From assembly GCA_040754315.1 (NCBI GenBank), contig JBFMCS010000051.1:1-64000 (forward strand): a stretch of 64,000 nt of DNA, read 5' to 3'. This DNA comes from Bacillota bacterium. Lineage in GTDB: Bacteria; Bacillota; Sulfobacillia; DUSP01; JBFMCS01. A model generated the notes under the pieces. It had not been told where the DNA came from, did no database searches, and worked only from the letters and a program-made list of their open reading frames with translations. Shown piece by piece: positions 12,879 through 61,295 of this stretch. Positions within the stretch are counted from its first letter, which is position 1. The number at the start of each line of letters is the position of its first letter. Position numbers and translations under genes: made by a program.

Positions 12879-12919
12879 CAGGTCTGGGGGCGCCTGTAGC
12901 GGAGGGGGGGAGATAGACT

Positions 12920-13327: not shown

Positions 13328-13374
13328 AGACGGGCAGTCTCCTGGGATCACGCACTAAGAGGGAGGTGGGACGT

Positions 13375-14121
13375 TTGGGCCTTTATCGCGAGGCACGCTA
13401 CCGGACAGCAGGAGACCGGGCGGTTGTGGCCCAGTTTGGAGATGAGATAGGCCTTGAGGTGAACCACCGGGTACGCGCCATGGCCCAGGAAATCGAGAGC
13501 GGCAGGCTTGAGGGGGTCACGGAGACGCTTCCCAGCTACAGTGTGCTCTACGTGTTCTACGACCCCCTCAAGGTGTCCTACGGCCAGGTGCTGGAAGGCC
13601 TGAGGGGCATCGAGGGCCGCCTGGAGCAGGTGGTGCTATCTCCCCCCAGGGTGTTCATCATTCCCACCCTCTACGGGGGAGAGATGGGACCGGACCTGGA
13701 GGACGTTGCGAGTCACGCCGGGCTGGGAGTGGAGGAGGTTGTGTCCATCCACTCCTCCGTGGACTACCACGTCTACTTCACTGGATTTACCCCGGGTTTC
13801 CTGTTCCTGGGGGGCATGTCCTCCAGGATCGCCACCCCAAGGCTGGAGAACCCCAGGACCAGGGTTCCCGCGGGATCCGTGGGGATCGCCGGCAACCAGA
13901 CAGGAGTCTATCCCATCCAGAGCCCCGGGGGCTGGAGGCTGATAGGGCGCACCCCAGTGAGGCTCTACGACCCCGCCCGGCCCGAGCCCGTGCTCATCAG
14001 GGCCGGGGACAAGGTGAGGTTTCGTCCCATGAGCGACCAGGAGTACCAGGAGATCAGCCGGAGGGTAAAGTCCGGCGAGTATATCATGGAGACCCTCACG
14101 GAAGGCGGTGAGGTGTCATGA
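13375..14121 (+). CDS. pxpB: 5-oxoprolinase subunit PxpB (KipI family)
   Basis: This 248-residue protein carries the KipI/PxpB signatures FTPGFLFLGGMSSRIATPRL, RTRVPAGSVGIAGNQTGVYP and SPGGWRLIGRTPVRLYDP. PxpA, PxpB and PxpC together hydrolyse 5-oxoproline to glutamate with ATP. The start is probably TTG 13375, because GGGAGG lies eight bases before it; the in-frame GTG at 13366 is inside this ribosome site. It overlaps pxpC by ATGA. Relatives have been called lactam-utilisation or allophanate-hydrolase-like proteins, so another cyclic amide is possible. Confidence 0.9.
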   Translation: MGLYREARYRTAGDRAVVAQFGDEIGLEVNHRVRAMAQEIESGRLEGVTETLPSYSVLYVFYDPLKVSYGQVLEGLRGIEGRLEQVVLSPPRVFIIPTLYGGEMGPDLEDVASHAGLGVEEVVSIHSSVDYHVYFTGFTPGFLFLGGMSSRIATPRLENPRTRVPAGSVGIAGNQTGVYPIQSPGGWRLIGRTPVRLYDPARPEPVLIRAGDKVRFRPMSDQEYQEISRRVKSGEYIMETLTEGGEVS

Positions 14122-15068
14122 CAGGGCTGAGGGTTGTTCACCCGGGGGCGCTCACCACCGTTCAGGACCTGGGGCGCTACGGGTACCAGGGCATGGGGCT
14201 CTCTCCCTCGGGGGTGCTGGATGACTACTCCTTCCGCATGGGCAACATTGTGCTGGGGAATGACCCAAGATCTGCTGCCGTGGAGATGGTTCTCTGGGCT
14301 CCCACCCTGGAGGTTACGGTAAAGACCGCCGTCGCGCTGGTGGGGGGGGAGGTCAGGGCCTTCATCAACGGCGAGGAGGCCCCCATGTGGGAGGCCCTCG
14401 TTGTGGAGCCCGGGGACCTCATCGAGGTCAAGGAGTTCAAGACGGGCTTTGCCTCCTACATCTGCGTGGCCGGGGGGGTTGCCGTTCCCCCTGTCCTTGG
14501 GTCGAGGTCCACGGACATCCTGGGCATGATGGGAGGGCTTGAAGGTGGTCTCGTGAAGAAGGACAGCGTTCTCCCGGTGGGTACGCCCTTGGTGCCCCTC
14601 AGGGAAATGGCGGGGCGGCGGCTCGGGCCTGCCTACATACCGGATTTCTCTGGGGAGGCCACGGTCAGGGTGATAATGGGACCGCAGGATGACTACTTCA
14701 CGGACAACGGCATCCAGACGCTGCTTACAACCCCCTACACCGTGAGCATGAAGTCAGACCGCATGGGCCTTAGGCTTGAGGGCGAGGTCATAGAGCACGG
14801 CAAGGGTGCTGACATCTTTTCCGAGGGGATTACTGTGGGGGCGATACAGGTGCCCAAGAACGGCCTGCCCATTGTGCTCCTGGCCGGCCGGCAGACCGTG
14901 GGCGGCTACACCAAGATAGCTGTGGTTGCGTCGGTTGACATTCACAGGGCGGCCCAGAGAAGGCCTGGCGATACCCTGAGGTTCTCGGCCACCGGCGTGG
15001 ATGAGGCCAGGGGGCTCCTCCTGGAGAGGGAGGCCCTCTTCCAGAAGGGCTCAGCCTTGCTGGAATAA
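14118..15068 (+). CDS. pxpC: 5-oxoprolinase subunit PxpC (KipA family)
   Basis: This 316-residue protein begins with VVHPGALTTVQDLGRYGYQG, the almost invariant start of PxpC/KipA, and contains GPQDDYFTDNGIQTLL, SDRMGLRLEG and GAIQVPKNGLPIVLLAGRQT. It is the biotin-carboxylase-like partner that forms the heteromer with PxpB. The ATG overlaps the pxpB stop. The order B-C-A matches the frequent bacterial arrangement. Confidence 0.92.
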   Translation: MTGLRVVHPGALTTVQDLGRYGYQGMGLSPSGVLDDYSFRMGNIVLGNDPRSAAVEMVLWAPTLEVTVKTAVALVGGEVRAFINGEEAPMWEALVVEPGDLIEVKEFKTGFASYICVAGGVAVPPVLGSRSTDILGMMGGLEGGLVKKDSVLPVGTPLVPLREMAGRRLGPAYIPDFSGEATVRVIMGPQDDYFTDNGIQTLLTTPYTVSMKSDRMGLRLEGEVIEHGKGADIFSEGITVGAIQVPKNGLPIVLLAGRQTVGGYTKIAVVASVDIHRAAQRRPGDTLRFSATGVDEARGLLLEREALFQKGSALLE

Positions 15069-15092
15069 ACAAGGTGCGAGGGGGGAGTTAAG

Positions 15093-15881
15093 GTGGCCAG
15101 TTTCGTGATGGACGTCAACAGTGACCTTGGTGAGAGCTACGGCAGGTACACTCTGGGTAATGACCAGGTACTCATGAAGTACATCAGCTCGGCCAACATA
15201 GCCTGTGGCTTTCACGCGGGTGACCCGTCTGTGATGAGGCACACCATACAGTGGGCCAAGGAGAACGACGTGGGTGTGGGGGCCCACCCGGGCTACCTGG
15301 ACCTGCAGGGCTTCGGCCGCAGGAGCATGGACATGACCCCCCAGGAGCTGGAGGACTTCATACTCTACCAGCTGGGGGCCATCGCCGGCTTCGCAAAGGC
15401 GGCTGGTGTCAGGGTAAGGCACCTGAAGTGCCACGGTGCCCTGGGCAACGACCTTCACCGCTTCCCCAGGGAAGGCAAGGAGGAAATCGTGAAGGCCGTG
15501 GGCCGGGCGGTGCTGGAGTTCGACCCGGATATAGTCCTGGTGGGCTTCGCGGCCTCGGACATGGTGGCCATATGGCGGGAGATGGGGCTGAAGGCGGCGG
15601 ACGAGATCTTCGCGGACAGGGCCTACAACCCCGACCTCACCCTGGTGTCCCGGAGGGTGCCCGGCGCGGTCATCACCGACCCCGGCGAGGTTGTGGCCCG
15701 GGTTTTAGCCATGGTGAAGACCAAGAGCATAATGGCTGTAGACGGCCGAGTGGTCAAGGACGTCCCCATGGACACCATCTGCATCCACGGGGATACGCCC
15801 ACAGCGGTGGACCTTGCCAGGCAGCTGAAGGAGCGGTTTGACCAGGAGGGCATCGAGGTGAGGGCATTCGAGGGACGCTAG
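15093..15881 (+). CDS. pxpA: 5-oxoprolinase subunit PxpA (LamB/YcsF family)
   Basis: At 262 residues it has the normal length of the LamB/YcsF family. It opens with MDVNSDLGESYGRYTLGND and has SSANIACGFHAGDPSVM, GVGAHPGYLDLQGFGRR, VRHLKCHGALGND and MDTICIHGDTPTAVDLA, all strongly conserved. This subunit is thought to hold the ring-opening site for 5-oxoproline. GTG 15093 has GAGGGGGGA upstream. It completes pxpBCA and is followed by a DUF1445 gene, a common genomic neighbour. Confidence 0.93.
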   Translation: MASFVMDVNSDLGESYGRYTLGNDQVLMKYISSANIACGFHAGDPSVMRHTIQWAKENDVGVGAHPGYLDLQGFGRRSMDMTPQELEDFILYQLGAIAGFAKAAGVRVRHLKCHGALGNDLHRFPREGKEEIVKAVGRAVLEFDPDIVLVGFAASDMVAIWREMGLKAADEIFADRAYNPDLTLVSRRVPGAVITDPGEVVARVLAMVKTKSIMAVDGRVVKDVPMDTICIHGDTPTAVDLARQLKERFDQEGIEVRAFEGR

Positions 15882-15905
15882 GAGGCCCAAGAGCCTGGGG
15901 AGGTG

Positions 15906-16700
15906 ATGAGGGTGGACATTGGCGGCGTGAGGCCGCCTGAGGCGAGGCGGCTCTTCCGTGAGGGCAAGGCCCAGGGCCCCACGGCGGGATGGTGCCGTGG
16001 CTATGCCCAGGCGAACCTGGCGGTCATGCCCAGGAAGGACGCCTATGACTTCCTGCTGTTCTGCGTGAGGAACCCCAAGCCCTGCCCCGTGCTGGATGTC
16101 ACCGAGGCGGGGTCCGCGGAGCCCAGGCGGGCGGCTCCGGGCGCTGACATCCGCTACGACCTGTCCCAGTACAGGGTGTACAGGAAGGGCGAGTTCGTGG
16201 AGGAGCCGGGGGACATCGCGGCCTACTGGGGGCCCGACATGGTGGGCTTCCTCCTGGGCTGCAGCTTCTCCTTCGAGGACGCCCTCCTGGAGGCGAAAAT
16301 ACCCATGAAGCACATAGAGCATGGCGAGAATGTGGCCATCTACAACACCACCATACAGTGCGAGCCCGCCGGGCGGTTCTCCGGAACCATGGTGGTGAGC
16401 ATGAGGCCCATACCGGGACGCCTGGTGCCCCGGGCCGTCACCGTGACGAGCCGGTTCCCCGGTGTGCATGGCATTCCGGTGCACGTGGGAGACCCGGAGG
16501 CTATCGGCATCAAGGACGTGTTCAAGGTTGACTGGGGGGATCCCCCCAGGATGGAGCCCGGGGACGTGCCTGTGTTCTGGGCCTGCGGGGTCACGCCCCA
16601 GGCGGTGGCCTTGAACAGCAAGCCTGACCTGATGCTCACCCACTCGCCTGGGCGAATGTTCATCACCGACATCTTAAACGAATCCCTGTCAGTCCTGTAA
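15906..16700 (+). CDS. DUF1445 / YcsI family protein (D-glutamate cyclase-like, putative hydro-lyase)
   Basis: This ~264-residue protein matches the YcsI/DUF1445 family: GPTAGWCRGYAQANLAVMP near the start, YWGPDMVGFLLGCSFSFEDA, IYNTTIQCEPAGRFSGTMVV and THSPGRMFITDI. Members are annotated as putative hydro-lyases; the mammalian relative DGLUCY is a D-glutamate cyclase giving 5-oxo-D-proline. Placement next to pxpBCA therefore suggests handling of D-glutamate/5-oxoproline or of a related lactam. The start is uncertain among GTG 15903, ATG 15906 and GTG 15912; GGGGAGG ends at 15902. Confidence 0.85.
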   Translation: MRVDIGGVRPPEARRLFREGKAQGPTAGWCRGYAQANLAVMPRKDAYDFLLFCVRNPKPCPVLDVTEAGSAEPRRAAPGADIRYDLSQYRVYRKGEFVEEPGDIAAYWGPDMVGFLLGCSFSFEDALLEAKIPMKHIEHGENVAIYNTTIQCEPAGRFSGTMVVSMRPIPGRLVPRAVTVTSRFPGVHGIPVHVGDPEAIGIKDVFKVDWGDPPRMEPGDVPVFWACGVTPQAVALNSKPDLMLTHSPGRMFITDILNESLSVL

Positions 16701-16731
16701 TGGAGCGGGAGCCCGGCAAGGGGGGGTACCT

Positions 16732-18405
16732 GTGGACTGGGAGTGCGTGGACACCGACGTCCTGGTGGTGGGGTCTGGCGGGGCAGGGCTATGTGCGGCA
16801 CTAGCTGCCCGGGAAGCGGGCGCCAGGGTGGTCCTAATGGACAAGAGCAGGACCGGGCGGGGCGGTGCCACGGTGATGGCCCTGTGCCAGGTGGCGGCGG
16901 CCCTGGGGGAGGCGGGACCCGATGACTGGACAATTCACATGGAGGATACCGTCAGGAGCGGCCACGGCCTGAACGACAGGGACATGGCCGAGGTCTTAGC
17001 CAGGGAGGCCCCGGATGCCCTTCGCTGGCTGGACGAGATCGGGACGGGCTTTGACAGGGAAGACGGGAGGATCCAGCAGGGCCCCGGCCCTGGGCATACC
17101 AGGCCCAGGGCCGCCCATGTCAACTTCCACACGGGACGCTCCATGATAAGGGCCCTTCTTGGGCAGGTGAAGAGGGACCCCGGGATACTCCTGGTAGAGA
17201 ACGCCGTAGCCTGGCGCCTGGTCAAGGCGGGCCAGCAGGTTAGGGGCTGCCTCGCCTATGACTACAGGAGAAACCTCGGCCTTCGATTGAGGGCCTCCAG
17301 CGTTATCCTGGCCACCGGGGGCGGCATGGAGGTCTACCCGTTGAGTACCGGGTCCGCCTGCCTCACGGGGGACGGCTACTCCCTGGGCCTCCAGGCCGGT
17401 GCTGGCCTGGTAGACATGGAGTTCGTGCAGTTCCTGCCCACATGCACGCTGGCCCCCCGGCTCCCGGGCATATCCTTGGCAATATGGGCGCCGGTGCGCT
17501 ACACCCTGGGGGGCAGGCTTCGCAACGGCCTTGGCCAGGAGTTCCTGGAGAGGTACGCCCAGGGCGCCGCGGCTACCCGGGACATGTTGTGCTTGGCAAT
17601 AACCCGGGAGGTGGAGGAGGGCAGGGGCTCCCCCCACGGAGGGGTCAACCTTGACTTTACCCAGGAACCCAGGGGAAAGGTCCTGGCGGGACTGGGGGAT
17701 CTCTACCGGCAGATCTTGGAAGCAGGCCTGGATGTTCTCAGGGAGCCCGTGGAGGTTTGCCCCATGCCCCATCACTTCATGGGTGGCCTGAGTGTGGACC
17801 CCTGTGGCGCCACCGGGGTGCCCGGGCTCTACGCTGCGGGAGAGGTTACAGGCGGGATCCACGGTGCCAACCGGCTCACCGGTAACGCCCTCTCCGACGT
17901 CACCGTATTTGGCCGCAGGGCGGGCAGGACCGCCGCAGCCTTCGCCAGGGAAGACCCTAGGAGGGAGGACTGGCTTGGAGAATGGAGGGCCCTGGAGGGG
18001 CTCTTGGAACCCAGGCCTGGGGAATCCCCAGCCCGGGCCAGGGAGGAACTCAGGGCGCTCATGCTGGACTGCGCAGGGCCTGTAAGGGACGGAGGGGGGC
18101 TGGCCAGGGGGCTTCGAGCCCTGGAGGAGATGAGGGAGAGACTCCTCGCCAGGGTCGCCCCGGGTGGCCAGCCCCCCTGGAACCTGGAAGCCCTGGAGAC
18201 CATAGAGTTCGGCCACATGCTCAACGTGGCTCTGGCGGTGGTCCTCTCCGCCCTCGAAAGAAGGGAGAGCCGCGGGGCCCACGTGCGCAGGGACCATCCC
18301 AACAGGGATGTGGCCTGGGAAAAGCACGTCAGGGTTCGCATGGACGGCAAGGGCCGCATGGTTAGGGACCACGTCCCCGTCAGGATGACCACGGAGGTGG
18401 GCTGA
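16732..18405 (+). CDS. FAD-dependent succinate dehydrogenase/fumarate reductase-type flavoprotein
   Basis: This 557-residue protein has the N-terminal FAD motif VLVVGSGGAGLCAALAAREA and SRTGRGGATVMALCQVAA, and the capping/active-site region PMPHHFMGGLSVDPCGATGV, PGLYAAGEVTGGIHGANRL and NALSDVTVFGRRAG, as in SdhA/FrdA and L-aspartate oxidase. It should oxidise or reduce a dicarboxylate-like substrate. The usual H-T-G-H before the substrate pocket reads H-T-G-R. GTG 16732 is the start. The next gene, without any gap, is a small [2Fe-2S] protein; no membrane anchor or full SdhB is present. The pair may be a soluble dehydrogenase rather than complex II. Confidence 0.88.
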   Translation: MDWECVDTDVLVVGSGGAGLCAALAAREAGARVVLMDKSRTGRGGATVMALCQVAAALGEAGPDDWTIHMEDTVRSGHGLNDRDMAEVLAREAPDALRWLDEIGTGFDREDGRIQQGPGPGHTRPRAAHVNFHTGRSMIRALLGQVKRDPGILLVENAVAWRLVKAGQQVRGCLAYDYRRNLGLRLRASSVILATGGGMEVYPLSTGSACLTGDGYSLGLQAGAGLVDMEFVQFLPTCTLAPRLPGISLAIWAPVRYTLGGRLRNGLGQEFLERYAQGAAATRDMLCLAITREVEEGRGSPHGGVNLDFTQEPRGKVLAGLGDLYRQILEAGLDVLREPVEVCPMPHHFMGGLSVDPCGATGVPGLYAAGEVTGGIHGANRLTGNALSDVTVFGRRAGRTAAAFAREDPRREDWLGEWRALEGLLEPRPGESPARAREELRALMLDCAGPVRDGGGLARGLRALEEMRERLLARVAPGGQPPWNLEALETIEFGHMLNVALAVVLSALERRESRGAHVRRDHPNRDVAWEKHVRVRMDGKGRMVRDHVPVRMTTEVG

Positions 18406-48934: not shown

Positions 48935-49932
48935 CATGACTATCCAGTCAACTCAGCACAAGTCAGTGCTGGGCACGCGGTGCAGGCAGACAGCAGTCGT
49001 GAGAACAGCTGGTCTGGCCGGGCACGGCGGTTGAACCGATAGCAGAACTCGGCCAAGTACGCTGCCAAGTGGTCCTCTGACAGCCCATGGTAGGTCCCGG
49101 CCACAAAAGCCTTCAGGTTGGAGACGATGGTATGTACCCAGTGTAGATGCTCTTGGGCTTGGCTGCTCCCCACGTGCCGTTCATGCGTGTAGCCTGCGGC
49201 TGTAAGCGTGGAGTAGACGCTAAGCCCGTCGGTTATCAGGTGGCTGCCGGGTAAGACTGCTTCAAGCAGGAAGTCATGTGCATGCTGGCAGTTGACGGTG
49301 TCGACCACGGCCATCTTGGCGTACAGGGGTTTTGCATCGGGAGTAACGGACACAGGCACCAAGATCGGCGTCTTCTCCGTGCCTCTCCCTTGTTTCCCGT
49401 TCGGACCGCCGACGAAGGCATCGTCCAGTTGCACCAATCCTCCCAGTCGATAGCGTCCATCCCGCGCCGCCATAGCATGGCGGACCTTGTGCAGCATGTG
49501 CCAGGCCGTTTGGTAGCTGACACGAAGATGTCGCTTGAGTGACAGGGCCGAGCAACCGCGCTTGTCACTGGCGACCAGGTAGATGGCCCAAAACCACTTC
49601 TGCAACAGGGTCCGGGTGCGGTACATCACCGTACCGGCAGTGACGGAGGCCTGATATCTGCAGGTGGTACACTGGTAGAGGTCCCGCTTGCTGATGTGGT
49701 AGTACCGGCTATTCTGACCCACTGGGCAACAGAATCCGTTGGGCCACCTGACCTCGAAAAGGTATCTCTCACCTGCCGGTTCGTCTGGGAAACGTTGCTG
49801 GAAATCCAACAGAGTCAAGGATTCTTGCCGGGCCATCAACAATTCCCCCCTCAGCGAACGGGCGTTCTCCCCTCATGATAGCACATATGTTCGCTTCGGG
49901 GAAGGACTTCCTGAGCTAGCTGGATAGTCATG
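48935..49932 (-). mobile_element. Second IS1595-like insertion sequence, about 1.0 kb
   Basis: The left end reads CATGACTATCCAGTCAACTCAG (48935-48956 minus two at the far side) and the complement of the right end (49911-49932) reads CATGACTATCCAG-CTAG-CTCAG, i.e. about 19 of 22 bases match. No direct repeat is found outside: TCGCTTTT on the left, TCAGCGGA on the right. This suggests a deletion or recombination next to the element after insertion. Confidence 0.75.
48940..49842 (-). CDS. IS1595-like family transposase (second type)
   Basis: This 300-residue transposase has the same layout as the one at 47328 but only distant identity. The zinc ribbon is incomplete: F-C-C-P-V-G-Q-N lacks the second Cys of the first pair, while YQCTTCRYQASVTAGTVMYR is normal. 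Catalytic regions are LVQLDDAFVGGPNGKQGRGT, SHLITDGLSVYSTLTAAGYT and HLAAYLAEFCYRFNRRARPD. The ATG is at 49842, with GGGGGAA upstream. It fills its element almost end to end. Confidence 0.88.
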   Translation of the reverse strand: MLMARQESLTLLDFQQRFPDEPAGERYLFEVRWPNGFCCPVGQNSRYYHISKRDLYQCTTCRYQASVTAGTVMYRTRTLLQKWFWAIYLVASDKRGCSALSLKRHLRVSYQTAWHMLHKVRHAMAARDGRYRLGGLVQLDDAFVGGPNGKQGRGTEKTPILVPVSVTPDAKPLYAKMAVVDTVNCQHAHDFLLEAVLPGSHLITDGLSVYSTLTAAGYTHERHVGSSQAQEHLHWVHTIVSNLKAFVAGTYHGLSEDHLAAYLAEFCYRFNRRARPDQLFSRLLSACTACPALTCAELTG

Positions 49933-50140: not shown

Positions 50141-50689
50141 TCACGGACGGCACTCCACCAAGTAGTCGGATTCCGTCAACGCGCGAACAAGGTCCCAAAT
50201 CTGCCGCGCCGGCTTCCCGTGCAGCAACACCCCGATCTCCAGGTGGCCCGAGATTCCTTTCTGGGTGATATTGGCGCTCCCGATGTACGCGTGCTCGGAG
50301 TCGCACAGGCAAAACTTCGCGTGGGACCCGAGCATCCGGGGATCTTCGACATTTCCACGGGGTTGGAAGGTGCGGAAGCGTGTCCCCGCCATCTCCCGAA
50401 GACTCCCAAGAGCCAGTCCGGCGAGGCTTGTCCCCGTAGTGATCAGGTCGACGTTTACGCCTCTCTTCAGAGCGGCCATCAGCGCCATGCCCAACGGCCC
50501 AGCCTGTAGTCCCTCCGCTCCCTGGATGAACGGCGCAGCGATCACGACATGCTTCCGCGCTGAAGCCAACAGCTCAGTCAGCACGCCTAACGTGGTCCTG
50601 GCGCCGATTCGGGAAGCGAGTTCGGCCCCGAACGGTTCCGGCACGGTCACGACGACTTCAACCACCAGCTCGGGGCGGCGGACGGCCAC
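50141..50689 (-). CDS. drmC: DISARM protein DrmC (phospholipase D-like), short form
   Basis: This 182-residue protein has one complete HKD motif in GSHAKFCLCDSEHAYIGSAN (about residues 120-140: H-x-K-x4-D followed by GSAN), a hydrophobic HVVIAAPFIQG strand before it, and EIGVLLHGKPARQIWD after. DrmC is the PLD-fold member of DISARM anti-phage systems; it is dispensable for some activities. The protein is shorter than the roughly 240 residues I would expect, mainly at the N-terminus. GTG 50689 is preceded by GGGAGGTGA, where the ribosome site includes the drmB stop, so translation is coupled. Last gene of the operon. Confidence 0.82.
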   Translation of the reverse strand: MAVRRPELVVEVVVTVPEPFGAELASRIGARTTLGVLTELLASARKHVVIAAPFIQGAEGLQAGPLGMALMAALKRGVNVDLITTGTSLAGLALGSLREMAGTRFRTFQPRGNVEDPRMLGSHAKFCLCDSEHAYIGSANITQKGISGHLEIGVLLHGKPARQIWDLVRALTESDYLVECRP

Positions 50690-50695
50690 TTTCGG

Positions 50696-52561
50696 TCACC
50701 TCCCCACCACGAAATCGAGAAAGCCAGTTCGGATCTCCCCCACAACAGAGTCGCGGCCGCCGAACAAGAAGGACCTACTGAGATTCAGATTGAAGAATCG
50801 ACAACTCGTCTCGGCGAGATGCGAGCAGGCATGGCAGCTGCCCCCTCTGTCGATGCAGACCGGATCGTACACGCATCTCCGGCTAGAGCGGATCTCTGCA
50901 AGCCATTCGGCCAGGGACTGTTCGAACAGGGCAGATAGGGCGCCGATCGTCGCGCCGTATCGATGGTTGCAGTAGATGGCGCACGTGAGGGTCCGGGGAA
51001 GCACATATTCGGAAAGGCTTGTTCCCTCTAGGCCGCACAGGAGCGAGGCACGCCTGAGCGCGAGATGACTAAGAGTGTGAAGCAGACCGAAGACGAGCCG
51101 TGCCTCCGGCACCTGGACCGTATGACGGAGTGGGACTCCGTCGAGAAGTTCAACGAAGTAGGCCCTGGCGCTCACGGTAGGCTCCTCGCCTCGAGGGATT
51201 CGAGGCACGAGACCATTCGCTGACATCCACCGCAGCACCGCGTCGTGGTTCAACCGAAGCAAAATGGCGTCCGCCTGTACGACGTCCACGAAGATCGGGA
51301 ACTTTCCTCCATGGTCTCGCTCGGCGGGGAAAGGATTGAGCCTGCATTCATCAGGTTGGTAGCCAGCGCGGCTATATCCGAACGTTGCAGTAGTAATGGG
51401 GAAATCCGTTGCGAGGGTCACGCCACTCATACCAAGACGGTGCGCAACCTCACGTGCGCGGGTGCGATCCTCAGCCTCCGCCTCCTGCTCTGCGAATAGC
51501 TCTACGACGTTACCTGACTCGAGTAGCATGACAGCTTCCAGCATCTCTTGCCCAGATCTTGCCCAGACGTCCCCTGGGACTCCGGACCGTCGGACCAGCG
51601 CAGCCGCGAGGTCCTGTGGCGATCCAGCGACCTCGGCCTCAGTTCGGTATGCTTGGAGGTCGGCCTGCATCTTTTCGAACTGCGCGATCATCTCCTCGCT
51701 TCTCCCCTGTGCTCGGAGACGAGCCCGCTCCGCTTCGCTAAGAGTGAATGGAGCAACTGCTGGGGCGGCTGTCGATGCGGCAAAGTCGACCAAGCGGCGC
51801 CCTCGGGATTCCGGTATTCCAAGGAATACCGACGCCGCCACCGCCTGCCACTGTGAGATCCTCAGGAACGCACTCCATTCCCTGCCAGGCTGGTTGAGCA
51901 GGACGGTGTAGTGGGGATAGAAGGTTCGCCCGGCGCGATGAACCTCCACGCTCATATTCTTCAGCGATGGATCACCGCCTGGCCAGTTGCACGACGAGCA
52001 TCGGCCCGCGAAGACGGACGCGGTTGCGCCGCAGGATCTGCAGACCCATTGGAAATCGGAGACGCGCTCGCTTCCTCGAGTGTCCAGGGCCATCCTCTGT
52101 CGGGCGTTACAGTTCTTGCAGTGCTGACTTGAGAGAGGCTCCAGAGCGCCGCAGCGGTGAACCCTTACGAAGCGCAGTTGCACGAGCCGCCCGACGCGAC
52201 AAACGCTGCAGCCCTCGGAGTTCGGCACGCCGTCTCGCGGCTCAACGATGACGCCGCAGCAAGGATTCTGGCACCAGAACACGAGGGGGAACATGGCCGC
52301 CTCTGCGCCCCGAGGTTCCAAGAGTACGAAGCGATCGGCAGTTTGCTCGAGGTCGCGAAATACGGGGCGATGCTCTTCGGACCATGCGCGAGCCTGCTCC
52401 TCGACCGCTCGCAAGATCAGGCGCGTGTTGAGGTCTGTCCGCGGAACGCCGCGAATCCGGTCCACTCGGGCGATAGTGCCGATCTTCTCGAAGTCAAAGG
52501 TCTTCCCCGGAAGGTAGTTCAGGAGGACCTGCTGCTTCCCACGGTTCATCCGGCGCCCCAT
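50696..52561 (-). CDS. drmB: DISARM protein DrmB (DUF1998 domain)
   Basis: This 621-residue protein has several cysteine clusters typical of DrmB: CQNPCCGVIV, CSVCRVG, HRCGALEPLSSQHCKNCNAR, CRSCGA with CSSCNWPGGDP, and the C-terminal DUF1998 region with VFGLLHTLSHLALRRASLLC, EYVLPRTLTCAIYCNHRYGA and CHACSHLAETSCRFFN. DrmA and DrmB form the core DNA-binding/translocating complex of DISARM. ATG 52561 lies 15 bases after the drmA stop, with GGCGGGGGG before it; ATG 52549 is an alternative. Low-G+C codon use compared with the catabolic cluster. Confidence 0.93.
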   Translation of the reverse strand: MGRRMNRGKQQVLLNYLPGKTFDFEKIGTIARVDRIRGVPRTDLNTRLILRAVEEQARAWSEEHRPVFRDLEQTADRFVLLEPRGAEAAMFPLVFWCQNPCCGVIVEPRDGVPNSEGCSVCRVGRLVQLRFVRVHRCGALEPLSSQHCKNCNARQRMALDTRGSERVSDFQWVCRSCGATASVFAGRCSSCNWPGGDPSLKNMSVEVHRAGRTFYPHYTVLLNQPGREWSAFLRISQWQAVAASVFLGIPESRGRRLVDFAASTAAPAVAPFTLSEAERARLRAQGRSEEMIAQFEKMQADLQAYRTEAEVAGSPQDLAAALVRRSGVPGDVWARSGQEMLEAVMLLESGNVVELFAEQEAEAEDRTRAREVAHRLGMSGVTLATDFPITTATFGYSRAGYQPDECRLNPFPAERDHGGKFPIFVDVVQADAILLRLNHDAVLRWMSANGLVPRIPRGEEPTVSARAYFVELLDGVPLRHTVQVPEARLVFGLLHTLSHLALRRASLLCGLEGTSLSEYVLPRTLTCAIYCNHRYGATIGALSALFEQSLAEWLAEIRSSRRCVYDPVCIDRGGSCHACSHLAETSCRFFNLNLSRSFLFGGRDSVVGEIRTGFLDFVVGR

Positions 52562-52576
52562 CGCTAAGCCCCCCGC

Positions 52577-55500
52577 CTATCGCCCCGCTCTTGAGGCCCA
52601 CGCACTGCCGTTCGGATCCAGCTCAATCTCGATCTGCTCGTCGACATCTCGAAGGTTACGCATAGGCTGAGGAACCAATGCCTCGGAAACGAATTTGGCA
52701 TGGTCCCCAGCACCAAGGATCTGATCCAGGAACTGGCGCACACGTCTACCGATCTCCTCCTGAAACGCCGCAGTGCCCGGCCCCGGCCAGCGGTCTATCA
52801 GGTAAGCTTCGTCGAGCATTCCCAGGAAGTTCTCCGCGCGAAGGGTTCCCTCGCTAATCAGTCTCTTCACGAAATTAACCATGTAGTAGCGATTGGGATT
52901 GTCCTGGCCGGAGTTGTTGGCAATTCGTTGTAAGAGGACCGCCATGAAGAGGCCTGGCAATGTACGTTGAATGCTGAACTTCGACCACCGGTTGATGGCA
53001 ACCGGTTCGACGAGTTGGCCGAGGAACTCATGGTACTTCTGAAAATACGCGAAGTGACTCTGATCTCGTTCGCGAGCCGGCTTGAGACACGTGAAGACGA
53101 TGCCAACGTGGGATCGACCGACTCGGCTCGAGGATTGAATGTACTCGGCGTTCTGCTTGGGCATACCATAGAGGATCATACAATTGAGTCTGTCGATGTC
53201 GACACCATGAGCGATCATGCTGGTGGCTAAGATCGCGTTCGGTGCCGTGGGGTGACCGGGCTGAGCGGTCTCGAGGAGTTCCAAGGTTCGCGTAACATTG
53301 TCAGTGCTCGTACTCCCGGAGAGTTCCGCGATCCTCAAAGGCGAAAACCCGGCCCTTTCGAGCTCATTGTTCACGTGAGCATCGAGATCTGTGCGGATGG
53401 AGCTCAGCTCTCGTGTTGCAGAAAAGTAGCAGAGGGAGGTGGCGTATGAGTCGACCAGGCTGCGCCAGAGTGGAGTGGCGGGCCTGCACTGCCCCCCCCC
53501 GAAGGGATTCACGGCAGCTGCCGGTAAGCGAACCAGCGTTTCGGTCTCCTCATGGTAATACTGCACGAGTTCCAAGACAGCGTTGAAGATCGTCTTGTTG
53601 TGCGGCAGCAAGCCGACGAAGAGCCGCTGTGGGTAGTCGAGGGTCCTGGCATAGAATGACGAACTCAATGTCGGGCCGAGGCCAGGGTAAACTCGGGCTT
53701 CTCTGCCGTAGAGATGGCGGACCTGACGATCGAACGCCTCGATTGTTGCCGAGGACGCGATGATCTTGACCGGTGCATGTTGACCGTAGGTTTGGAGAAG
53801 AGTTTGAAGAAAGGTTTCGTAGTGTCCATCGAATGTCCCCAGCCCCTCCTTCAGAAGATGCAGCTCATCCTGAATGAACAGGGTGGGTCCGCTCACGCCG
53901 GGGGGAGATCCGGGGCGAAGCCGGCTCACATCCGAACAGTCCTTCTGACAGCACTTGCCGTTGTAGTACCCGTGCTGTACACAACGCCCCGTAACTTGAC
54001 CGAGGACGAGAGACAGTTTTCGTTGATTGCCAAGGCCGGCGAGCTTGTCGATTGTTCCCACGAGCACCGCTGGTAGGAAACGGTAGATCTCATTATCAAC
54101 CACATAGACAGGAAGAATTCCGCCTGGAAATCTGCATCCTGGGTTGCAGCACCTGTGGGTCAACCGGACCCGATCCGGGTCGAATTCCACTACCACACTC
54201 GAGGTCCGACATGCGGGACACTTGACAATCTTCTTCCAACGTTGGCGAGCGTCCGGATCGTTGGCAGTGCTCCAGTTGAGGTCCGGCGGCTCCCCTCGAC
54301 GGGGAGGAGTCAATTCATTCGGCGTGGCCTCTTGGCCAACGAAGTACCCTACGGCGAAACCATCGACTTCACGTCCAGAGAGCCGAGGATCAGAGTGCGC
54401 CCGGCGGATTAGTTCCGCGGCGCCGATAACATCTGCGACACGCTGTGTCTGCTGCAGTGTAAGCAACCGGAGCGGGAAGCGCGTCCATGTAGTGATGCCG
54501 GATGCCTTCCCTCGGAGGCGGTCAAAAAAGCAGTGAAAGACAATGACGCCGAGGTAGGCTTCCGTCTTACCACCGCCCGTCGGGAAATAGATGATGTCCA
54601 CCACGCTTCGGTCGAGCATGGCTGATTGCTCACTAGACTTCAGTGCATGAATGCCCGGAATCTGAGACACGATGAAGATGACTTGGAAGAGACGCCATTC
54701 AGTCTTCTGGCCGCCGAGCGCGAAGGACTGATTCGCCAGCTGGAAGGCGAGCCGAGCGTCTGCGTCCTGTTCGATGAGACGACACCCTTGCGCGAATCGC
54801 TCGATTTCAGCACGGAACAAGCGGTGGTCGCGCTCGTACTCGTCACCGTGCCGAGCTTTCCAGGCTGGGTCCTCGGCAACATACCGGTCCCGCTGGGCAA
54901 TCCACTCGCGATTGTACTCCTGCATCGCGTCGAGAACGCGTTGGAGTACGGGGACGGGATTGGTGCTCAAGTCTTGGAAAGATGCGCGTGGCTTGGTATT
55001 GGTGCTGTAGCGAGCCTGCGAATAGACCGGCACGTTTGTTGTTTCGAAAGCGCACTGCGTGCTGTCGGGCTGGGTCCTCACGACCGCACAGTTAAAGCCG
55101 CGCCCCCAGAGTTGGCGATCGTATCGGAAGCTCCGCGGAGCTACGTCGAGTTCGAAGGGCAGGACGTTTGCATGCTCGAAGGTCAGGGTGGCCCTCACAT
55201 CGAAGAAGAAACCCTCGCTGTGCCAAGCGCGGGTGTCGATCGGCGACGAGTTGGTCGCCTCAAGCGAGAAGATAACCTCATCCGGCTCGTCTGCGGGCCG
55301 GAGTTGTGAGCCAATGGCCCAGCGCCATGGTGGCGCGAGATCCGTCGATAGGTGCTCTTTAAACTCAGCATAGGCAGATCCTGATTCAAGAGCTTCGGGT
55401 GGCACCCGCACTCGTTCTTCGGGGTTCGGTCCTGTCCGAAGGTGATCAGGGTCGGCCAGGATGACGTCACGTACGCCCGCAACCTCGCGCTCAGTTGCTC

Positions 55501-56161
55501 TTTGAAGGTCAGCGACGTCGATGGACCATGACTCGTCCGCGGCGCTGGCTTTCCGGAGCGCTATGCAACCCTGAGCAGAGCATCGGATCTTGCGGTACTT
55601 CGGAAAGAGCACGTCCGTCGGCCGACGGCCTCTGCGGCCAGGGGGCGTGGGAGCAGGTCCCGAAGGACTCTGCACGGGGTCATCAGAATCCCCGTCGGCC
55701 TCCTCTTCAACGTCAGTCGAACGTCCCTCTGATACCTCTGTCGGCTGACTTGATTCTCCGGACGCCGTGGAGCCCGCGACCGCTGAGGCGTGCCGCTGGT
55801 GCTCGCGCTGTTCGTCTAGGGCTGGAAACACTCGATAGTAGCAACTCCACTCGAGTCGGATGCGGCTCAGAAAGTCGGATCCCTCCGGTTTCACTCGGAA
55901 CTCGGCGCCAATGGCCATGGGGGCCAGCTTCGTGAGGAGTTCGTCGGGGAACCCCGCACGGTAAACCGCAGCGCCAGGTTCCCGCTCAGGATCAGGGGGA
56001 CACGGCCTCAACGAACCAATGAAGTACTTGTCCCTTGGTGCACTGTGAGTGCACTCCGCCTCGAAGGTTCCTGCAGCGCGGCCGCACACCCGCTTCACGA
56101 GGTACTCTGCGAGGCGGGGTTCCTCATCACGCGTCACCCAGTCGGGACTCACGAACGTCAT
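52577..56161 (-). CDS. drmA: DISARM protein DrmA (SF2 helicase)
   Basis: This 1194-residue protein has helicase motif I FPTGGGKTEAYLG (about residue 525), motif II LFIQDELHLLKEGLGTFDGH (about 765, D-E-L-H), motif III ASSATIEA, and in the second RecA domain ATSMIAHGVDIDRLNCMILY and QSSSRVGRSHVGIVF (about 980-1015). The long N-terminal region (about residues 1-480), with an acidic, Ser/Glu-rich linker near 130-170, is the part found in DrmA. ATG 56161 overlaps the drmE stop by ATGA. It is the motor of the system and the reason for the DISARM assignment. Confidence 0.95.
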   Translation of the reverse strand: MTFVSPDWVTRDEEPRLAEYLVKRVCGRAAGTFEAECTHSAPRDKYFIGSLRPCPPDPEREPGAAVYRAGFPDELLTKLAPMAIGAEFRVKPEGSDFLSRIRLEWSCYYRVFPALDEQREHQRHASAVAGSTASGESSQPTEVSEGRSTDVEEEADGDSDDPVQSPSGPAPTPPGRRGRRPTDVLFPKYRKIRCSAQGCIALRKASAADESWSIDVADLQRATEREVAGVRDVILADPDHLRTGPNPEERVRVPPEALESGSAYAEFKEHLSTDLAPPWRWAIGSQLRPADEPDEVIFSLEATNSSPIDTRAWHSEGFFFDVRATLTFEHANVLPFELDVAPRSFRYDRQLWGRGFNCAVVRTQPDSTQCAFETTNVPVYSQARYSTNTKPRASFQDLSTNPVPVLQRVLDAMQEYNREWIAQRDRYVAEDPAWKARHGDEYERDHRLFRAEIERFAQGCRLIEQDADARLAFQLANQSFALGGQKTEWRLFQVIFIVSQIPGIHALKSSEQSAMLDRSVVDIIYFPTGGGKTEAYLGVIVFHCFFDRLRGKASGITTWTRFPLRLLTLQQTQRVADVIGAAELIRRAHSDPRLSGREVDGFAVGYFVGQEATPNELTPPRRGEPPDLNWSTANDPDARQRWKKIVKCPACRTSSVVVEFDPDRVRLTHRCCNPGCRFPGGILPVYVVDNEIYRFLPAVLVGTIDKLAGLGNQRKLSLVLGQVTGRCVQHGYYNGKCCQKDCSDVSRLRPGSPPGVSGPTLFIQDELHLLKEGLGTFDGHYETFLQTLLQTYGQHAPVKIIASSATIEAFDRQVRHLYGREARVYPGLGPTLSSSFYARTLDYPQRLFVGLLPHNKTIFNAVLELVQYYHEETETLVRLPAAAVNPFGGGQCRPATPLWRSLVDSYATSLCYFSATRELSSIRTDLDAHVNNELERAGFSPLRIAELSGSTSTDNVTRTLELLETAQPGHPTAPNAILATSMIAHGVDIDRLNCMILYGMPKQNAEYIQSSSRVGRSHVGIVFTCLKPARERDQSHFAYFQKYHEFLGQLVEPVAINRWSKFSIQRTLPGLFMAVLLQRIANNSGQDNPNRYYMVNFVKRLISEGTLRAENFLGMLDEAYLIDRWPGPGTAAFQEEIGRRVRQFLDQILGAGDHAKFVSEALVPQPMRNLRDVDEQIEIELDPNGSAWASRAGR

Positions 56162-58695
56162 GACCTTCCTCCCTCGAGGCGACCCAAGTGCGGTCGGTAG
56201 AACGGCCCACTCTGCTGCCTGACTTCGAGAACTCGGGCACGGAGCAAAGAGTGTCGGAAATCTTCTACAGTCAGTCCGAGCTCAACGTCGATCACTTCGT
56301 CGGCCGTGCCAACGGCTACTGTGCCTGCACCGCTGGACGTGAGCCAACGATTAAGGCGCGCTGCGAGACTGATGTGTAGCCCCCTAAGGCGTTTAGCAGC
56401 GGTATTGATCTGCCTGCAATAGCTCTTCACGAATCCGAGGGAGAGAACCTCGGCAATGCGTTTCAGGTCTTCCGGATCGCTGGGTGCTAGGACGAGCCGA
56501 CGCGACCACGAGCGAACTGTATGAGGCGAAGTCAGCCGGCTACCCTTCGCCTGCAGATCCTGGAGCAGGCCTTCCGGGGTGGTTCGGCCTAGACGCTCGG
56601 CCTCCGTGAAAGCACGCACGAAGTCATCTTGCCACCGTCGAACAAGGGCAAGGTACTGTGCAATCACCGGGTCACGATGAACCCTCGAGACGAGAAGTTC
56701 GTACAGGCTCTGCCGACGCTGCCCTGAAATGAGCAGAATCTCATCTCCGACCCGCAATGAGCGCACGTACCTTTCCTCGATCTGAGCGCTTCCCTGAACG
56801 CGAACAATGACGTTGACTGTCTCGTCAGTGGGAAGGAGGACGTGCAAGCCACCTTCCAGCCATATCTCAAGCGCTTCTTGGACCCATGGGTTTTCGGGAG
56901 ATGCCCAGGTTTCAGAACCCGCAGCAGCTTCGGGGAGCACAGCTTGAGGCACATAGCCTTCGTCGTCCTCAACCGGCGGTGCCGTTCCGAACAGATCTGC
57001 AATCGCTTCTGCTGCATCTGGGCGCTTCCAGAGGCTCACCGTTTCCGCCTTGCGACGAAGCTCCTCGCCAAGAGCGCCTGCGGTTGCGCTATGCCGTCCG
57101 CCAAGTCGTAGGGCGCGTCTCGCAGACGTGGGCGGTTCAAGCGTGCGCTGCTCGGGCTCGTCCAAAATCGGAAGCCAGTGGCCGAGATTGCGAGAGGAGA
57201 GACTCAGCTTTGAGGAAAGATGGCGTATGCGGCGTTCGAGGATTGGTTCCTGGTGCGGCCAGAGGAGAACTTCGAGCTGCCCTGAGTCTAGGAGCCCGTC
57301 GAGGTGTCTTTCTGCAAATCGGCTCGGCATGCCGACCAACAAGGGCGACGGGTTGTTGGCCGCGTGCTGGCCACGGGGCTGCTCCCCGAGAGTATCAACA
57401 TCAACCTCAGTGAGTTCCTTCAAGTAAGCCAGCTCGACCCCGACGTCTCTCAAATCGTCCTCGCTGATATTGAAGCGTGCCAGTAGGCAGAGGGCGAACA
57501 TCTCTCGCCTCGACTTGGAGGCGAACACGATCCTGCGCTGCTCTGTGGACTCGACGCAGAGATTCGCCAATCCCAGCCACAGGGGGGACCCGGACGAACC
57601 GAGTAGATCGTGGGCGGAGGCAAGCGCATCCGCCGCGTCCTGAAGCACAGCGTGAAGACTCGGCGAGTGGGGTCGAACGGCATCCATGAACCGAGCAAAG
57701 TTCTCGCGCAGCTCCGAAATTCGACGGAGCCCCCAGTACGAGTTCACCTCTCGCTCGTAGACAGCCAGTGGTACGGGAACGGACTCCATCGCCCTCAAGC
57801 ACTTCCAGCCGAGAATCACGGCATCCCTAGAGAGTCGTCCATTCTGGAATTCGCGGGCCGCCAGCATTGCCTCCGTGGCGGAGGCGAATGCCTTCGATAT
57901 CTCGATGACGTGCTCGCCGAGGAGAACTCGGGCGGTCACTTCAGCTTCGAGCGCCCTTTCCGCGAGCTGCTCCAATGCGAGGATACATGTACTGGCCCCG
58001 CGTTGAAGACGCGGCCACCGAAACACGCCGGCGCCCACCTCCAACCACTGGGCAACGGCCCCGCTGAAAGGCCTAGCCGTCCATCCCACGACTGGGATGC
58101 TCATCTTCTTTGCTTCTGCGAGAAGACCGGGGAGCCAGCCAATCTCATGGCTTTCCCCGCAATCGACGGCGACCCATTTGGCCTTGTATTGACGAAGCAG
58201 AGCGGCTGGATCTGCGGGAGCGCAGATGCAGAAAACGGATGGCAGATTCACCCCACCTGGCGAGGACACTGTCTTCAGTTCATTACCCCTTCTTCTACCA
58301 TACTGTTGAGCAAAGACGCCGTCGAGGGTGAAGGAGCCGAGCCGAATACTGGCCAAGTGCGATCGGATGCCTGCGTAGCCCGAGACGTACAGAACGCAAC
58401 GGCCCACCTCGCCGGATTCTATTTGGGCCAAGCCGTCCATGACGAGTGCCGTCGCGAACAGGAGGGGGGCTCGGCGCTCAAGTCCATCCGGAAACACGAC
58501 CAAAGTCGCATCGCTCGTACTGGAGCGAAGTGCAGAGCACATGAGCCTCGCGCTGAGTTCGTCAACAAGGTCGGGCACGCCTTCCGGACCCGTGTGGCGG
58601 AGTTTTCGCTCAGCCGCGACACGACGGAATATCGGATCGGACGCGAGGGGAAGCGCGTCGAATGCGGAACGCACCTTGCTAAGGTCCAGTGCCAT
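56158..58695 (-). CDS. drmE: DISARM class 2 protein DrmE
   Basis: This 845-residue protein precedes drmA as in class 2 DISARM loci and has the DrmE character: an N-terminal alpha/beta region (SDATLVVFPDGLERRAPLLF, RCVLYVSGYAGIRSHLASIR), a mid part with KWVAVDCGESHEIGWLPGLL, and a C-terminal helicase-like region without Walker motifs (RGLHISLAARLNRWLTSSGA near the end). I recognise it by size, gene order and general pattern rather than by a diagnostic motif. ATG 58695 lies four bases after the upstream stop with GGAGATG before it; the stop overlaps drmA. Confidence 0.78.
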   Translation of the reverse strand: MALDLSKVRSAFDALPLASDPIFRRVAAERKLRHTGPEGVPDLVDELSARLMCSALRSSTSDATLVVFPDGLERRAPLLFATALVMDGLAQIESGEVGRCVLYVSGYAGIRSHLASIRLGSFTLDGVFAQQYGRRRGNELKTVSSPGGVNLPSVFCICAPADPAALLRQYKAKWVAVDCGESHEIGWLPGLLAEAKKMSIPVVGWTARPFSGAVAQWLEVGAGVFRWPRLQRGASTCILALEQLAERALEAEVTARVLLGEHVIEISKAFASATEAMLAAREFQNGRLSRDAVILGWKCLRAMESVPVPLAVYEREVNSYWGLRRISELRENFARFMDAVRPHSPSLHAVLQDAADALASAHDLLGSSGSPLWLGLANLCVESTEQRRIVFASKSRREMFALCLLARFNISEDDLRDVGVELAYLKELTEVDVDTLGEQPRGQHAANNPSPLLVGMPSRFAERHLDGLLDSGQLEVLLWPHQEPILERRIRHLSSKLSLSSRNLGHWLPILDEPEQRTLEPPTSARRALRLGGRHSATAGALGEELRRKAETVSLWKRPDAAEAIADLFGTAPPVEDDEGYVPQAVLPEAAAGSETWASPENPWVQEALEIWLEGGLHVLLPTDETVNVIVRVQGSAQIEERYVRSLRVGDEILLISGQRRQSLYELLVSRVHRDPVIAQYLALVRRWQDDFVRAFTEAERLGRTTPEGLLQDLQAKGSRLTSPHTVRSWSRRLVLAPSDPEDLKRIAEVLSLGFVKSYCRQINTAAKRLRGLHISLAARLNRWLTSSGAGTVAVGTADEVIDVELGLTVEDFRHSLLRARVLEVRQQSGPFYRPHLGRLEGGRS

Positions 58696-58698
58696 GGC

Positions 58699-60588
58699 TC
58701 ACATCTCCGTGTCTCCCTTGGGACCGGACCGCCCTATATCGTATCCCCCGAGGGCATGGGAGCGAGAAACTGCCTGCTGGAATTCGGTCCACGAGAAGAC
58801 ACGATGGTCCCACGGTGTGCGCAAGTGGACGATCGTATCCGGCCGCAGCTCGTGTATGAACTCGGACCAGTTTGCGGCCGCGAGAATGGCGGTAACTCCA
58901 AGATTCTTCGCGCACCGCCGCAGATTCCTCGAGACGATGTTCGCCGTTATTGGGTCTAGGGTGCCGCAGAATTCATCCGCGACCCAAACCTCCGCCTGCG
59001 AGGCGATGAGTTTGGCCACCATGGCGCGGTATCGCTGACCGTTACTTAGCTCGCGGAAACGCTTCACGTAAAGATGAGCCTCTGCCAGACCGGAGACGTT
59101 CAACGCGAACAATGAGTTCTCGAATGACCGCTGCCCCAGTGAATTGATAAGGGGACGTGAGCTTGGCAGCGGGCCAAGCGTGCTGACCGTGAGCGTACGG
59201 GGAACCTCGACGGAGCCGGTCAATCCCTGCGGACTTGTGGAGGGATCAACGAGCTTCTTCGCGAGGAGCGAAAGAAGCGTTGTTTTCCCGGCACCCGAAG
59301 GACCGCAGATGAGCACGATGTCCCCGAGCCGAATCGTGAAGTTGAGACCCGCGAACAGTGTGGTCGTCAGCATGTCGCGACTGACGCCGAAGGCCTGTTG
59401 GATCTTCCTCGTCGCCTGAGTTCGTACCAGGGGCGAAGAAATCGCGAGCGTGCACTGCCTAACTTCGATCGGCCGCGAAAGAGCCGGAGAACGTTCCGGT
59501 GGCCGTTGCGCCGGGTAGCGCCCGGGAAGTCCAAGTTCGCGGATTCTCCGGTGCACAAAACACTCTGCCGCAGGTGTCAGCCCCATGAAGAATGTCGGTT
59601 TAGGCAGACGGAATATACGATGAAGCAGCGCCCAGTTCTCGTCAGAGAGGCGTTGCGGAGACCGCAAAAGGAGACGGAGCAGACGCTCGCGGGGAACGCC
59701 CTGCTCACTCTCGATTTGCTTGAGGCATGTGGCGTAGGAGACCTGCAGGTCGACGATCCCAGCGCTCTCCTCTTTCAGAATCTCACCCTTCTTGACGCGA
59801 GAGTAGTTCCTCAGGATGTAGTCCATGTCCTCGTTCACGCGGGTGAGATTGCCCTCGGTGTCGCCGATGTAGTGCATCCCGGGAGACTCAACGAACGGCA
59901 CGTACCGAAGCATATCTGCGGTGATCTCGAGGAAGAGGGGCTTGAGCTTGCCAACATGCCAGTGTTGCCGCGCGAAGCGAGCCGCGTGTTTGACGAGGAT
60001 GCGTGCGAGACCGAGTCCTCTGAATTCGGGGGAGACAACGGTTCTCGCGATGCGAACAACGAGGTTGGTGTACTCGCGTACGGCGACTTTCCTCCACGTC
60101 GTCCAAGAGATGCTCCCATTGCGATCATGAAACTCAGCGTCGAGGAGCGCGGCCCTCGGACGATTCATGATGAAGGTGGTGGAGAGTTCGATGTACCCTA
60201 ACACGCAGGGCAGCATGGGATCATCGGAACGAACGATTAGCGGCACGTGCCGTCCGTGGAGCGCCTTCCCGCGGTAGTGGCACTCCTCGAGCCGGTGGTA
60301 GCCGGCGAGCTCGTCCTGGGTCTCGACTTCCTTCACTCTAAGGGGGACACGGCGCGTGCCGATCGACAGGGAGTCCTCGACAGCGTAGACCGGAAGAATC
60401 TGCGCACGCCCATTGCGGCACTTCGCACGGGCCTCGTTCGCACTCACCACAACGACGTCGTCACCCGGCCCAAGGCAACAGTAGCGGTGCGTTTTCAGCG
60501 TCCGCTCGTTGGCGAGACGGTAGATCTTATGCAGATCCTCGTATCGAACGCTGGCTACCTGCACGCCGAATCTCTCCACCGCGTTCAC
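58699..60588 (-). CDS. GNAT-ABC ATPase fusion protein (COG2401-like), first gene of the DISARM-like operon
   Basis: Residues about 1-60 form a small N-terminal domain (RYEDLHKIYRLANERTLKTH). Residues about 85-290 look like a GNAT acyltransferase: HYRGKALHGRHVPLIV, then the acyl-CoA-binding segment ARTVVSPEFRGLGLARILVK (R-G-L-G-L-A). Residues about 385-590 form an ABC ATPase: Walker A CGPSGAGKTTLLSLL (near 429), signature LSNGQRYRAM (near 514), Walker B VWVADEFCGTLDP, and an altered H-loop (ILAAANWSEF, no His). No membrane segments, so it is not a transporter. It resembles the COG2401 group (ABC-type ATPase fused to predicted acetyltransferase). GTG 60588 has GGAGGGAAC upstream. It is translationally linked to drmE and occupies the place where a methyltransferase gene might be expected. 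Confidence 0.82.
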   Translation of the reverse strand: MNAVERFGVQVASVRYEDLHKIYRLANERTLKTHRYCCLGPGDDVVVVSANEARAKCRNGRAQILPVYAVEDSLSIGTRRVPLRVKEVETQDELAGYHRLEECHYRGKALHGRHVPLIVRSDDPMLPCVLGYIELSTTFIMNRPRAALLDAEFHDRNGSISWTTWRKVAVREYTNLVVRIARTVVSPEFRGLGLARILVKHAARFARQHWHVGKLKPLFLEITADMLRYVPFVESPGMHYIGDTEGNLTRVNEDMDYILRNYSRVKKGEILKEESAGIVDLQVSYATCLKQIESEQGVPRERLLRLLLRSPQRLSDENWALLHRIFRLPKPTFFMGLTPAAECFVHRRIRELGLPGRYPAQRPPERSPALSRPIEVRQCTLAISSPLVRTQATRKIQQAFGVSRDMLTTTLFAGLNFTIRLGDIVLICGPSGAGKTTLLSLLAKKLVDPSTSPQGLTGSVEVPRTLTVSTLGPLPSSRPLINSLGQRSFENSLFALNVSGLAEAHLYVKRFRELSNGQRYRAMVAKLIASQAEVWVADEFCGTLDPITANIVSRNLRRCAKNLGVTAILAAANWSEFIHELRPDTIVHLRTPWDHRVFSWTEFQQAVSRSHALGGYDIGRSGPKGDTEM

Positions 60589-61022: not shown

Positions 61023-61295
61023 TCAGGGGGCGCGGGGTTGCAGGAACGGCTGGCCCCGGAACCCGGCTGCGAGCACCGCCAGGACCGAGTGACCCCGCTT
61101 GCGCACGGTCGAGAGGTAGCCGCGGATGCGGCAGCAGGCCTGTGCACCGGCGAAGCTGCGGAAGGTACCGGAGAGCTTCTGCTGCACCTTGACCATGCGC
61201 AGGTCGCGCTCCGCCAGGTTGTGGTCGAAGAGCACCCGGAAGTCGTACAGGAAAGCGAGCACTGCGGGGCGGTGCTGCTTCAGCCGGTCGAGCAA
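61023..61295 (-). pseudogene. IS66-family transposase, C-terminal fragment
   Basis: The 90 residues read FRVLFDHNLAERDLRMVKVQ, QKLSGTFRSFAGAQACCRIR and GYLSTVRKRGHSVL, the characteristic C-terminus of the IS66 TnpC transposase (including the conserved N-x-A-E-R-D-L-R-M with the catalytic Glu). The upstream part of the gene is missing: homology stops before 61320, so it is a fragment left by deletion or by another insertion. Confidence 0.85.

Follow-up and report, generated by a model that had tools for sequence, protein, structure and literature searches.

A DISARM-like operon headed by a GNAT-ABC ATPase fusion, and its possible use of base acylation as a self mark

A compact operon in the 64-kb stretch of DNA analysed here (the window) appears to belong to a class 2-like branch of DISARM (DrmE-DrmA-DrmB-DrmC) in which a GNAT-ABC module, with or without an ASCH domain, stands in place of the methyltransferase. 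We tentatively propose a DISARM subtype whose self mark would be an enzymatically acylated base, possibly N4-acyl-cytosine, with GNAT-ABC writing the mark and ASCH reading or erasing it, and with one and the same module exchanged between DISARM and a HerA/PLD/ORC restriction cassette; this full reading we regard as quite possible rather than probable. The narrower prediction within it, that GNAT-ABC acylates a DNA base as a self mark and thereby replaces methylation, seems to us moderately probable.

Results

The operon occupies positions 50141-60588 and comprises five tightly packed genes on the minus strand, separated by junctions of +3, -4, +15, and +6 bases in order from GNAT-ABC to DrmC. 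They encode the GNAT-ABC fusion (58699-60588; 629 aa; PF00583 at 6e-6 and PF00005 at 3.5e-13), a DrmE-like protein (56158-58695; 845 aa) with a DrmE_C domain at residues 606-788 (PF24957, 8e-49), DrmA, a YprA-type SF2 helicase (52577-56161; 1194 aa; PADLOC DrmA, 1e-157), the CxxC-rich DrmB (50696-52561; 621 aa; PADLOC DrmB, 4e-53), and a PLD-family nuclease-like DrmC (50141-50689; 182 aa; PF13091, 1e-15). Open reading frames and profile searches agree in this with the first-pass annotation, which had described the same series of five close genes. A transposase open reading frame (48940-49842) and a transposase remnant (61023-61295), IS1595-like and IS66-like respectively as judged by eye only and likewise on the minus strand, mark the boundaries and lie outside the system. 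The enzymes examined have retained their catalytic motifs, including the helicase motifs of DrmA (FPTGGGKT at 526, DELH at 765, HGVD at 985, and SRVGR at 1012), the HKD motif of DrmC (HAKFCLCD), and the Walker A/B, LSxGQ, and RxxGxG/A motifs.

All four Drm proteins score below the curated NCBIfam cut-offs – DrmA with 461 bits against NF038325 (equivalog cut-off 950), DrmE with 60 bits against the full-length model NF038323 (cut-off 250), DrmB with 52 bits (cut-off 240), and DrmC with 67 bits against NF038319 (cut-off 133) – and the branch is therefore a divergent one. The defining features of DISARM that are present are DrmA, DrmB, and a PLD-type DrmC, together with the class 2 feature DrmE, represented by its C-terminal domain; because the search for the defining DNA methyltransferase (DrmMI or DrmMII) found none in the operon, we file it as a DISARM variant and not as a canonical member. 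Membership of ARMADA was considered and rejected, as DrmB is a separate protein and the operon includes neither of the two partner genes. The PF24957 model scores 157-177 bits on DrmE proteins of this branch versus about 80 or less on the other DrmE proteins here, and looks as if it had been built around the branch of the window.

A DrmA alignment scan of genome contigs yielded 79 loci with a bimodal distribution of identities to the window DrmA, eight of them lying at 49-70% and the remaining loci at 37% or less. Outside the clade, DISARM loci are no more than 36% identical to the window DrmA, the few matches at 37% covering part of the protein. GNAT-ABC is present in all six of the clade loci with upstream sequence, the other two of the eight contigs (L068 and L070) being cut inside drmA, and in none of the 71 more distant DISARM loci, 64 of which have at least 4.5 kb upstream (Fisher p 8e-9 for GNAT-ABC versus clade membership, with shared ancestry ignored). 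Among the DISARM loci fetched, GNAT-ABC is thus exclusive to the DrmA clade of the window. The genomes of L068 and L070 yielded no GNAT-ABC, which says little either way because the drmA contigs are cut there. A further full five-gene operon (L154) was found by a GNAT-region search of 350 Chloroflexota genomes. Ten rows of the DrmA tree form one clade with an SH-aLRT value of 100, and the GNAT-ABC label needs one change on this tree, the two cut loci being left out.

The order GNAT-ABC, DrmE, DrmA, DrmB is shared by the window and by loci in Gemmatimonadota (L059), Chloroflexota (L060, L064, and L154), KSB1 (L061), and Pseudomonadota (L062), and L061 is the only one of these in which DrmC went undetected. 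An acidobacteriotal operon (L063) is partly alike; an HNH-domain gene (1450-2310) lies between its ASCH gene and drmA, where DrmE would be expected. Besides the window's genome, the operon is known from at least five named phyla, and horizontal transfer is therefore likely. Artefact or chance adjacency is rejected, as the same arrangement recurs in other genomes and is therefore far from chance. The branch is rare but recurring: a strong GNAT-ABC match turned up once among 399 genomes from the phylum of the window and once each among 220 and 247 genomes from two other phyla, every time in the known carrier. When viral contigs were scanned with GNAT-ABC and with DrmA singly, there were no matches, a result explained by the patterns used, which are non-conserved. 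Gene-by-gene identity correlations within the clade (r 0.83-0.94) fall to 0.30-0.59 without the close pair formed by the window and L059, which drives them, and they are therefore no proof of co-evolution. The first-pass annotation had suggested a distinct DISARM subtype, to be checked by a survey of drmA-drmB-drmE neighbourhoods and to be doubted if no other genome had the five-gene arrangement. The suggestion holds up well: GNAT-ABC co-occurs with drmE-drmA-drmB in several phyla, is exclusive to a single DrmA clade among the DISARM loci fetched, and is part of the complete arrangement elsewhere, as in L154.

The window GNAT-ABC, labelled COG2401-like in the first-pass annotation, has an N-terminal small beta-barrel (residues ~9-76), a GNAT domain (~79-245), a linker, and an ABC ATPase. 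PF00583 scores 26.9 bits against a cut-off of 20.7, and the GNAT motifs are HYR at 104 and RGLGLA at 190; the latter is the acyl-CoA-binding motif R/QxxGxG/A, with R190 and G193 invariant (alignment A5). The ABC part has Walker A at 429, LSNGQ at 514, and DEF at 538, and is without the switch histidine, a residue lost in the defence-linked clade and kept in standalone homologues. AlphaFold models of GNAT-ABC (mean pLDDT 76 and 69) contain the N-terminal beta-barrel, a GNAT fold, and the ABC domain. ABC transporters dominate the Foldseek matches of the full-length model, and the matches of the GNAT part to solved structures are superfamily-level ones with low TM-scores, among them HAT1, TacT, AtaT, KacT, and NAT10. 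NAT10 is an RNA cytidine acetyltransferase, and TacT, AtaT, and KacT are tRNA-acetylating toxins; as the matches are generic and mixed, they do not decide the substrate. A viral fold search with the GNAT part gave no match below 1e-3, and homology of this part to the DNA modifier Mom was rejected after a profile comparison found no similarity (hhalign probability <1%).

An ASCH partner of GNAT-ABC, fused or adjacent, is found at six of eight loci; the window and L059 are without one, and their GNAT-ABC proteins have a short tail only. A separate small ASCH gene follows GNAT-ABC in L061 and L063 (PF04266, 3e-16 and 3e-15), the C-terminal domain of GNAT-ABC in L060, L062, and L064 aligns with these ASCH proteins (hhalign 95.5%), and L154 and L155 have GNAT-ABC with a fused C-terminal ASCH domain. 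An ASCH gene also adjoins the distant GNAT-ABC of Thermomicrobium roseum. The pairing of ASCH with GNAT-ABC is new here and went unseen in the first-pass annotation. In Escherichia coli the ASCH protein YqfB hydrolyses N4-acylcytosines, and its residues Lys21, Thr24, and Arg26 are essential (PMC6972931). The free-standing ASCH proteins of L061 and L063 retain the YqfB-type K-x-x-T-x-R motif, whereas the fused copies have lost it, a pattern of residues that suggests eraser and reader versions, respectively.

The module also occurs outside DISARM. In a Chloroflexota genome (L155, 8453-15031), GNAT-ABC-ASCH heads an operon that has no Drm genes. The genes behind it encode an ATPase of HerA type, a winged-helix protein, a nuclease of the PLD family, and an ATPase resembling ORC/Cdc6, and the whole is possibly an undescribed restriction cassette. 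Its GNAT-ABC is nested inside the DISARM-linked clade (100/100), groups with those of L154 and L138 at 100/99, and stands apart from standalone homologues in the tree. The occurrence of one module with two unrelated restriction-type cassettes is as expected of a putative portable self-marking module. On a viral contig (L138, 7740-9899) GNAT-ABC lies directly downstream of what by inspection looks like a large serine recombinase, and the contig ends inside or just after it; this neighbourhood is consistent with mobility of GNAT-ABC. Standalone GNAT-ABC proteins that keep the switch histidine and have no Drm genes nearby occur in Chloroflexota/Thermomicrobia (L156-L160 and L016), the T. roseum copy among them. 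An ABC ATPase without GNAT, ~29-34% identical to the ABC part, is found in phages SSU5 and phiK7B1 (L017 and L018); two ParB-like genes lie beside it, on phages as well as on phage-plasmids.

The slot before drmE that GNAT-ABC takes in this branch is the same slot as a METHYLTRANSFERASE. A C5 methyltransferase lies directly before drmE in Desulforadius (L108), and the gene before drmE in Rubrobacter (L029) encodes an N6-type methyltransferase (DPFSGGGT and DPPY), so that its candidacy as a second GNAT-ABC, which it resembles in size, was rejected. Neither a C5 nor an N6 methyltransferase was matched in the entire 64-kb window, which confirms and widens the earlier observation that there is none between the flanking IS elements. 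The first-pass annotation had named a functional drmM gene elsewhere in the genome as a refutation, and this objection is weakened but not removed: PF00145 (C5 methyltransferase) is absent from the whole genome of the window, but there are five Eco57I/N6-methyltransferase-like genes, three of them in tandem on contig C37 and the others on C26 and C45, none adjoining Drm genes. The tandem genes (C37, ~8303-14809; L143) are of Eco57I type and encode proteins of 656-784 aa.

Neither of the two methyltransferase families tested in the carriers is common to all: no C5 methyltransferase was found in six of ten carrier genomes, several of which are drafts, and the Eco57I type is absent from one carrier and below cut-off in another, several carriers again being drafts. 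Methyltransferases outside the operon lie within the fetched stretch at L064 (C5) and L154 (MmeI-type). Other DISARM-like loci (for example L027, L071, L073, and L074) have neither a detected methyltransferase nor GNAT-ABC; therefore, methyltransferase absence alone does not define the branch, and not every DISARM-like cassette has a marking gene of its own nearby. In L071, L073, and L074 (~14450-18100) DrmA-DrmB without a detected methyltransferase is followed by a P-loop gene and a B12-binding radical SAM-like gene, identified by eye, and these cassettes may represent another modification type.

Discussion

We envisage that the ABC ATPase, probably together with the N-terminal beta-barrel, would engage DNA in an ATP-dependent manner and present a base for acylation by the GNAT domain, with acyl-CoA as the donor and an exocyclic amine as the acceptor. 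The N4 of cytosine is our preferred site, since the ASCH partners fall within the N4-acylcytosine amidohydrolase superfamily, and the N6 of adenine is possible. Acylated host DNA would be no substrate for the DrmAB helicase, whereas incoming phage DNA without the mark would undergo loading and unwinding and be either blocked or cut, helped by DrmC or some other nuclease. A fused ASCH domain, with its degenerate active site, would read the mark, and a free-standing one, with the residues kept, would remove or edit it. In a class 1 DISARM system, DrmAB responds to DNA ends and methylation dampens its activity (PMC9142583); an acyl mark could damp DrmAB in the same way. According to the account in PMC7824862, which cites Iyer et al., a GNAT coupled to an ABC ATPase is predicted to acylate a DNA base. 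DNA as the substrate, the acyl chemistry, the self-mark role, and the response of DrmAB are what we infer for the present system. That GNAT-ABC might supply the self mark instead of methylation had been raised in the first-pass annotation, and the idea gains from the methyltransferase slot, the ASCH partner, and the reuse of the module, all of them indirect indications. Against it stand the missing ASCH in the window and L059, the lack of profile resemblance between the GNAT part and Mom, the generic fold matches, the N6-methyltransferase-like genes elsewhere in the window's genome, the methyltransferases near the operons of L064 and L154, and the DISARM-like loci that have neither a detected methyltransferase nor GNAT-ABC.

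GNAT-ABC could instead be an effector or second-line toxin that acetylates aminoacyl-tRNA or a translation factor on infection, in the manner of TacT or AtaT, with the ABC ATPase as its trigger, ASCH as an antidote or RNA-binding targeting domain, and DrmEABC relying solely on DNA structure for self/non-self discrimination. Three such toxins (TacT, KacT, and AtaT) are among the best Foldseek matches of the GNAT part, DrmAB of a class 1 system goes in part by the structure of DNA ends (PMC9142583), and one published reading of the related GNAT-EVE/ASCH operons is that they are toxin-antitoxin systems with aminoacyl-tRNA as the target (PMC7641849). We consider this combination unlikely, however, as those fold matches are generic, GNAT-ABC occupies the methyltransferase position of other DISARM systems, and there is no conserved antitoxin-like gene, the window and L059 being without ASCH. 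The loss of the switch histidine in the defence-linked clade would suit a slow, switch-like ATPase, and this, along with the tight gene junctions, favours a sensor or regulator, an ABC clamp that would turn DrmAB on or off upon sensing replication intermediates or the ends of foreign DNA, perhaps through acetylation of a Drm subunit. Such a role nevertheless appears improbable: L155 joins the same protein to unrelated HerA/PLD/ORC genes, which makes a DrmAB-specific regulator less likely, and the ASCH pairing finds no explanation in it. An ordinary methylation-dependent DISARM with a methyltransferase acting in trans and GNAT-ABC as an accessory passenger could draw on the five Eco57I/N6-methyltransferase-like genes on other contigs and on the methyltransferases that L064 and L154 have beyond their operons, but is very improbable given the invariance of GNAT-ABC in the clade across phyla and, in a set of carriers that includes several drafts, the absence of C5 methyltransferases from six of ten genomes and of the Eco57I type from one, with a further one below cut-off.

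If base acylation by GNAT-ABC is indeed the self mark, DISARM would rely on any base modification that its helicase senses and not on methylation as such, and an acyl mark, as opposed to a methyl one, would bring a chemistry new to bacterial DISARM-type restriction. Two questions become testable, namely the target of the long-predicted GNAT-ABC family and the way in which DrmAB distinguishes DNA that bears the mark from DNA that does not, and the ASCH pairing leads to a specific chemical prediction, N4-acyl-dC.

No mention of GNAT-ABC linked to DISARM was found in the open-access literature, and several known systems share parts of the arrangement. McrBC-linked DISARM-like cassettes (PMC11090510, PMC12458937) likewise place a DrmAB-type helicase in a defence context, but GNAT-ABC is unmentioned there and the McrBC association is not seen here. 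The (PIN)-GNAT-EVE operons with ASCH, interpreted as base-acetylating systems or as toxins (PMC7641849), also bring a GNAT and a PUA-superfamily domain near restriction systems, but with an EVE fusion and PIN or AAA_17 partners, and with neither an ABC ATPase nor DrmAB. In BREX-Related Capture with GNAT/TGT (PMC12839542) a GNAT is similarly a proposed modifier of self DNA, and its HerA and ORC/Cdc6 components resemble those of L155, whereas its core is of PglZ/BrxC type, without DrmAB or an ABC fusion. The system of Iyer et al. also joins a GNAT domain to an ABC ATPase and, in the account given in PMC7824862, is described in jumbo phages. From class 2 DISARM (drmE, drmA, drmB, drmC, drmMII) the window operon differs in being without a methyltransferase, in having GNAT-ABC first, and in its Drm proteins falling under the NCBIfam cut-offs, but it shares with that class the content and order DrmE-DrmA-DrmB-DrmC, the YprA-type helicase, the separate DrmB, and the PLD nuclease.
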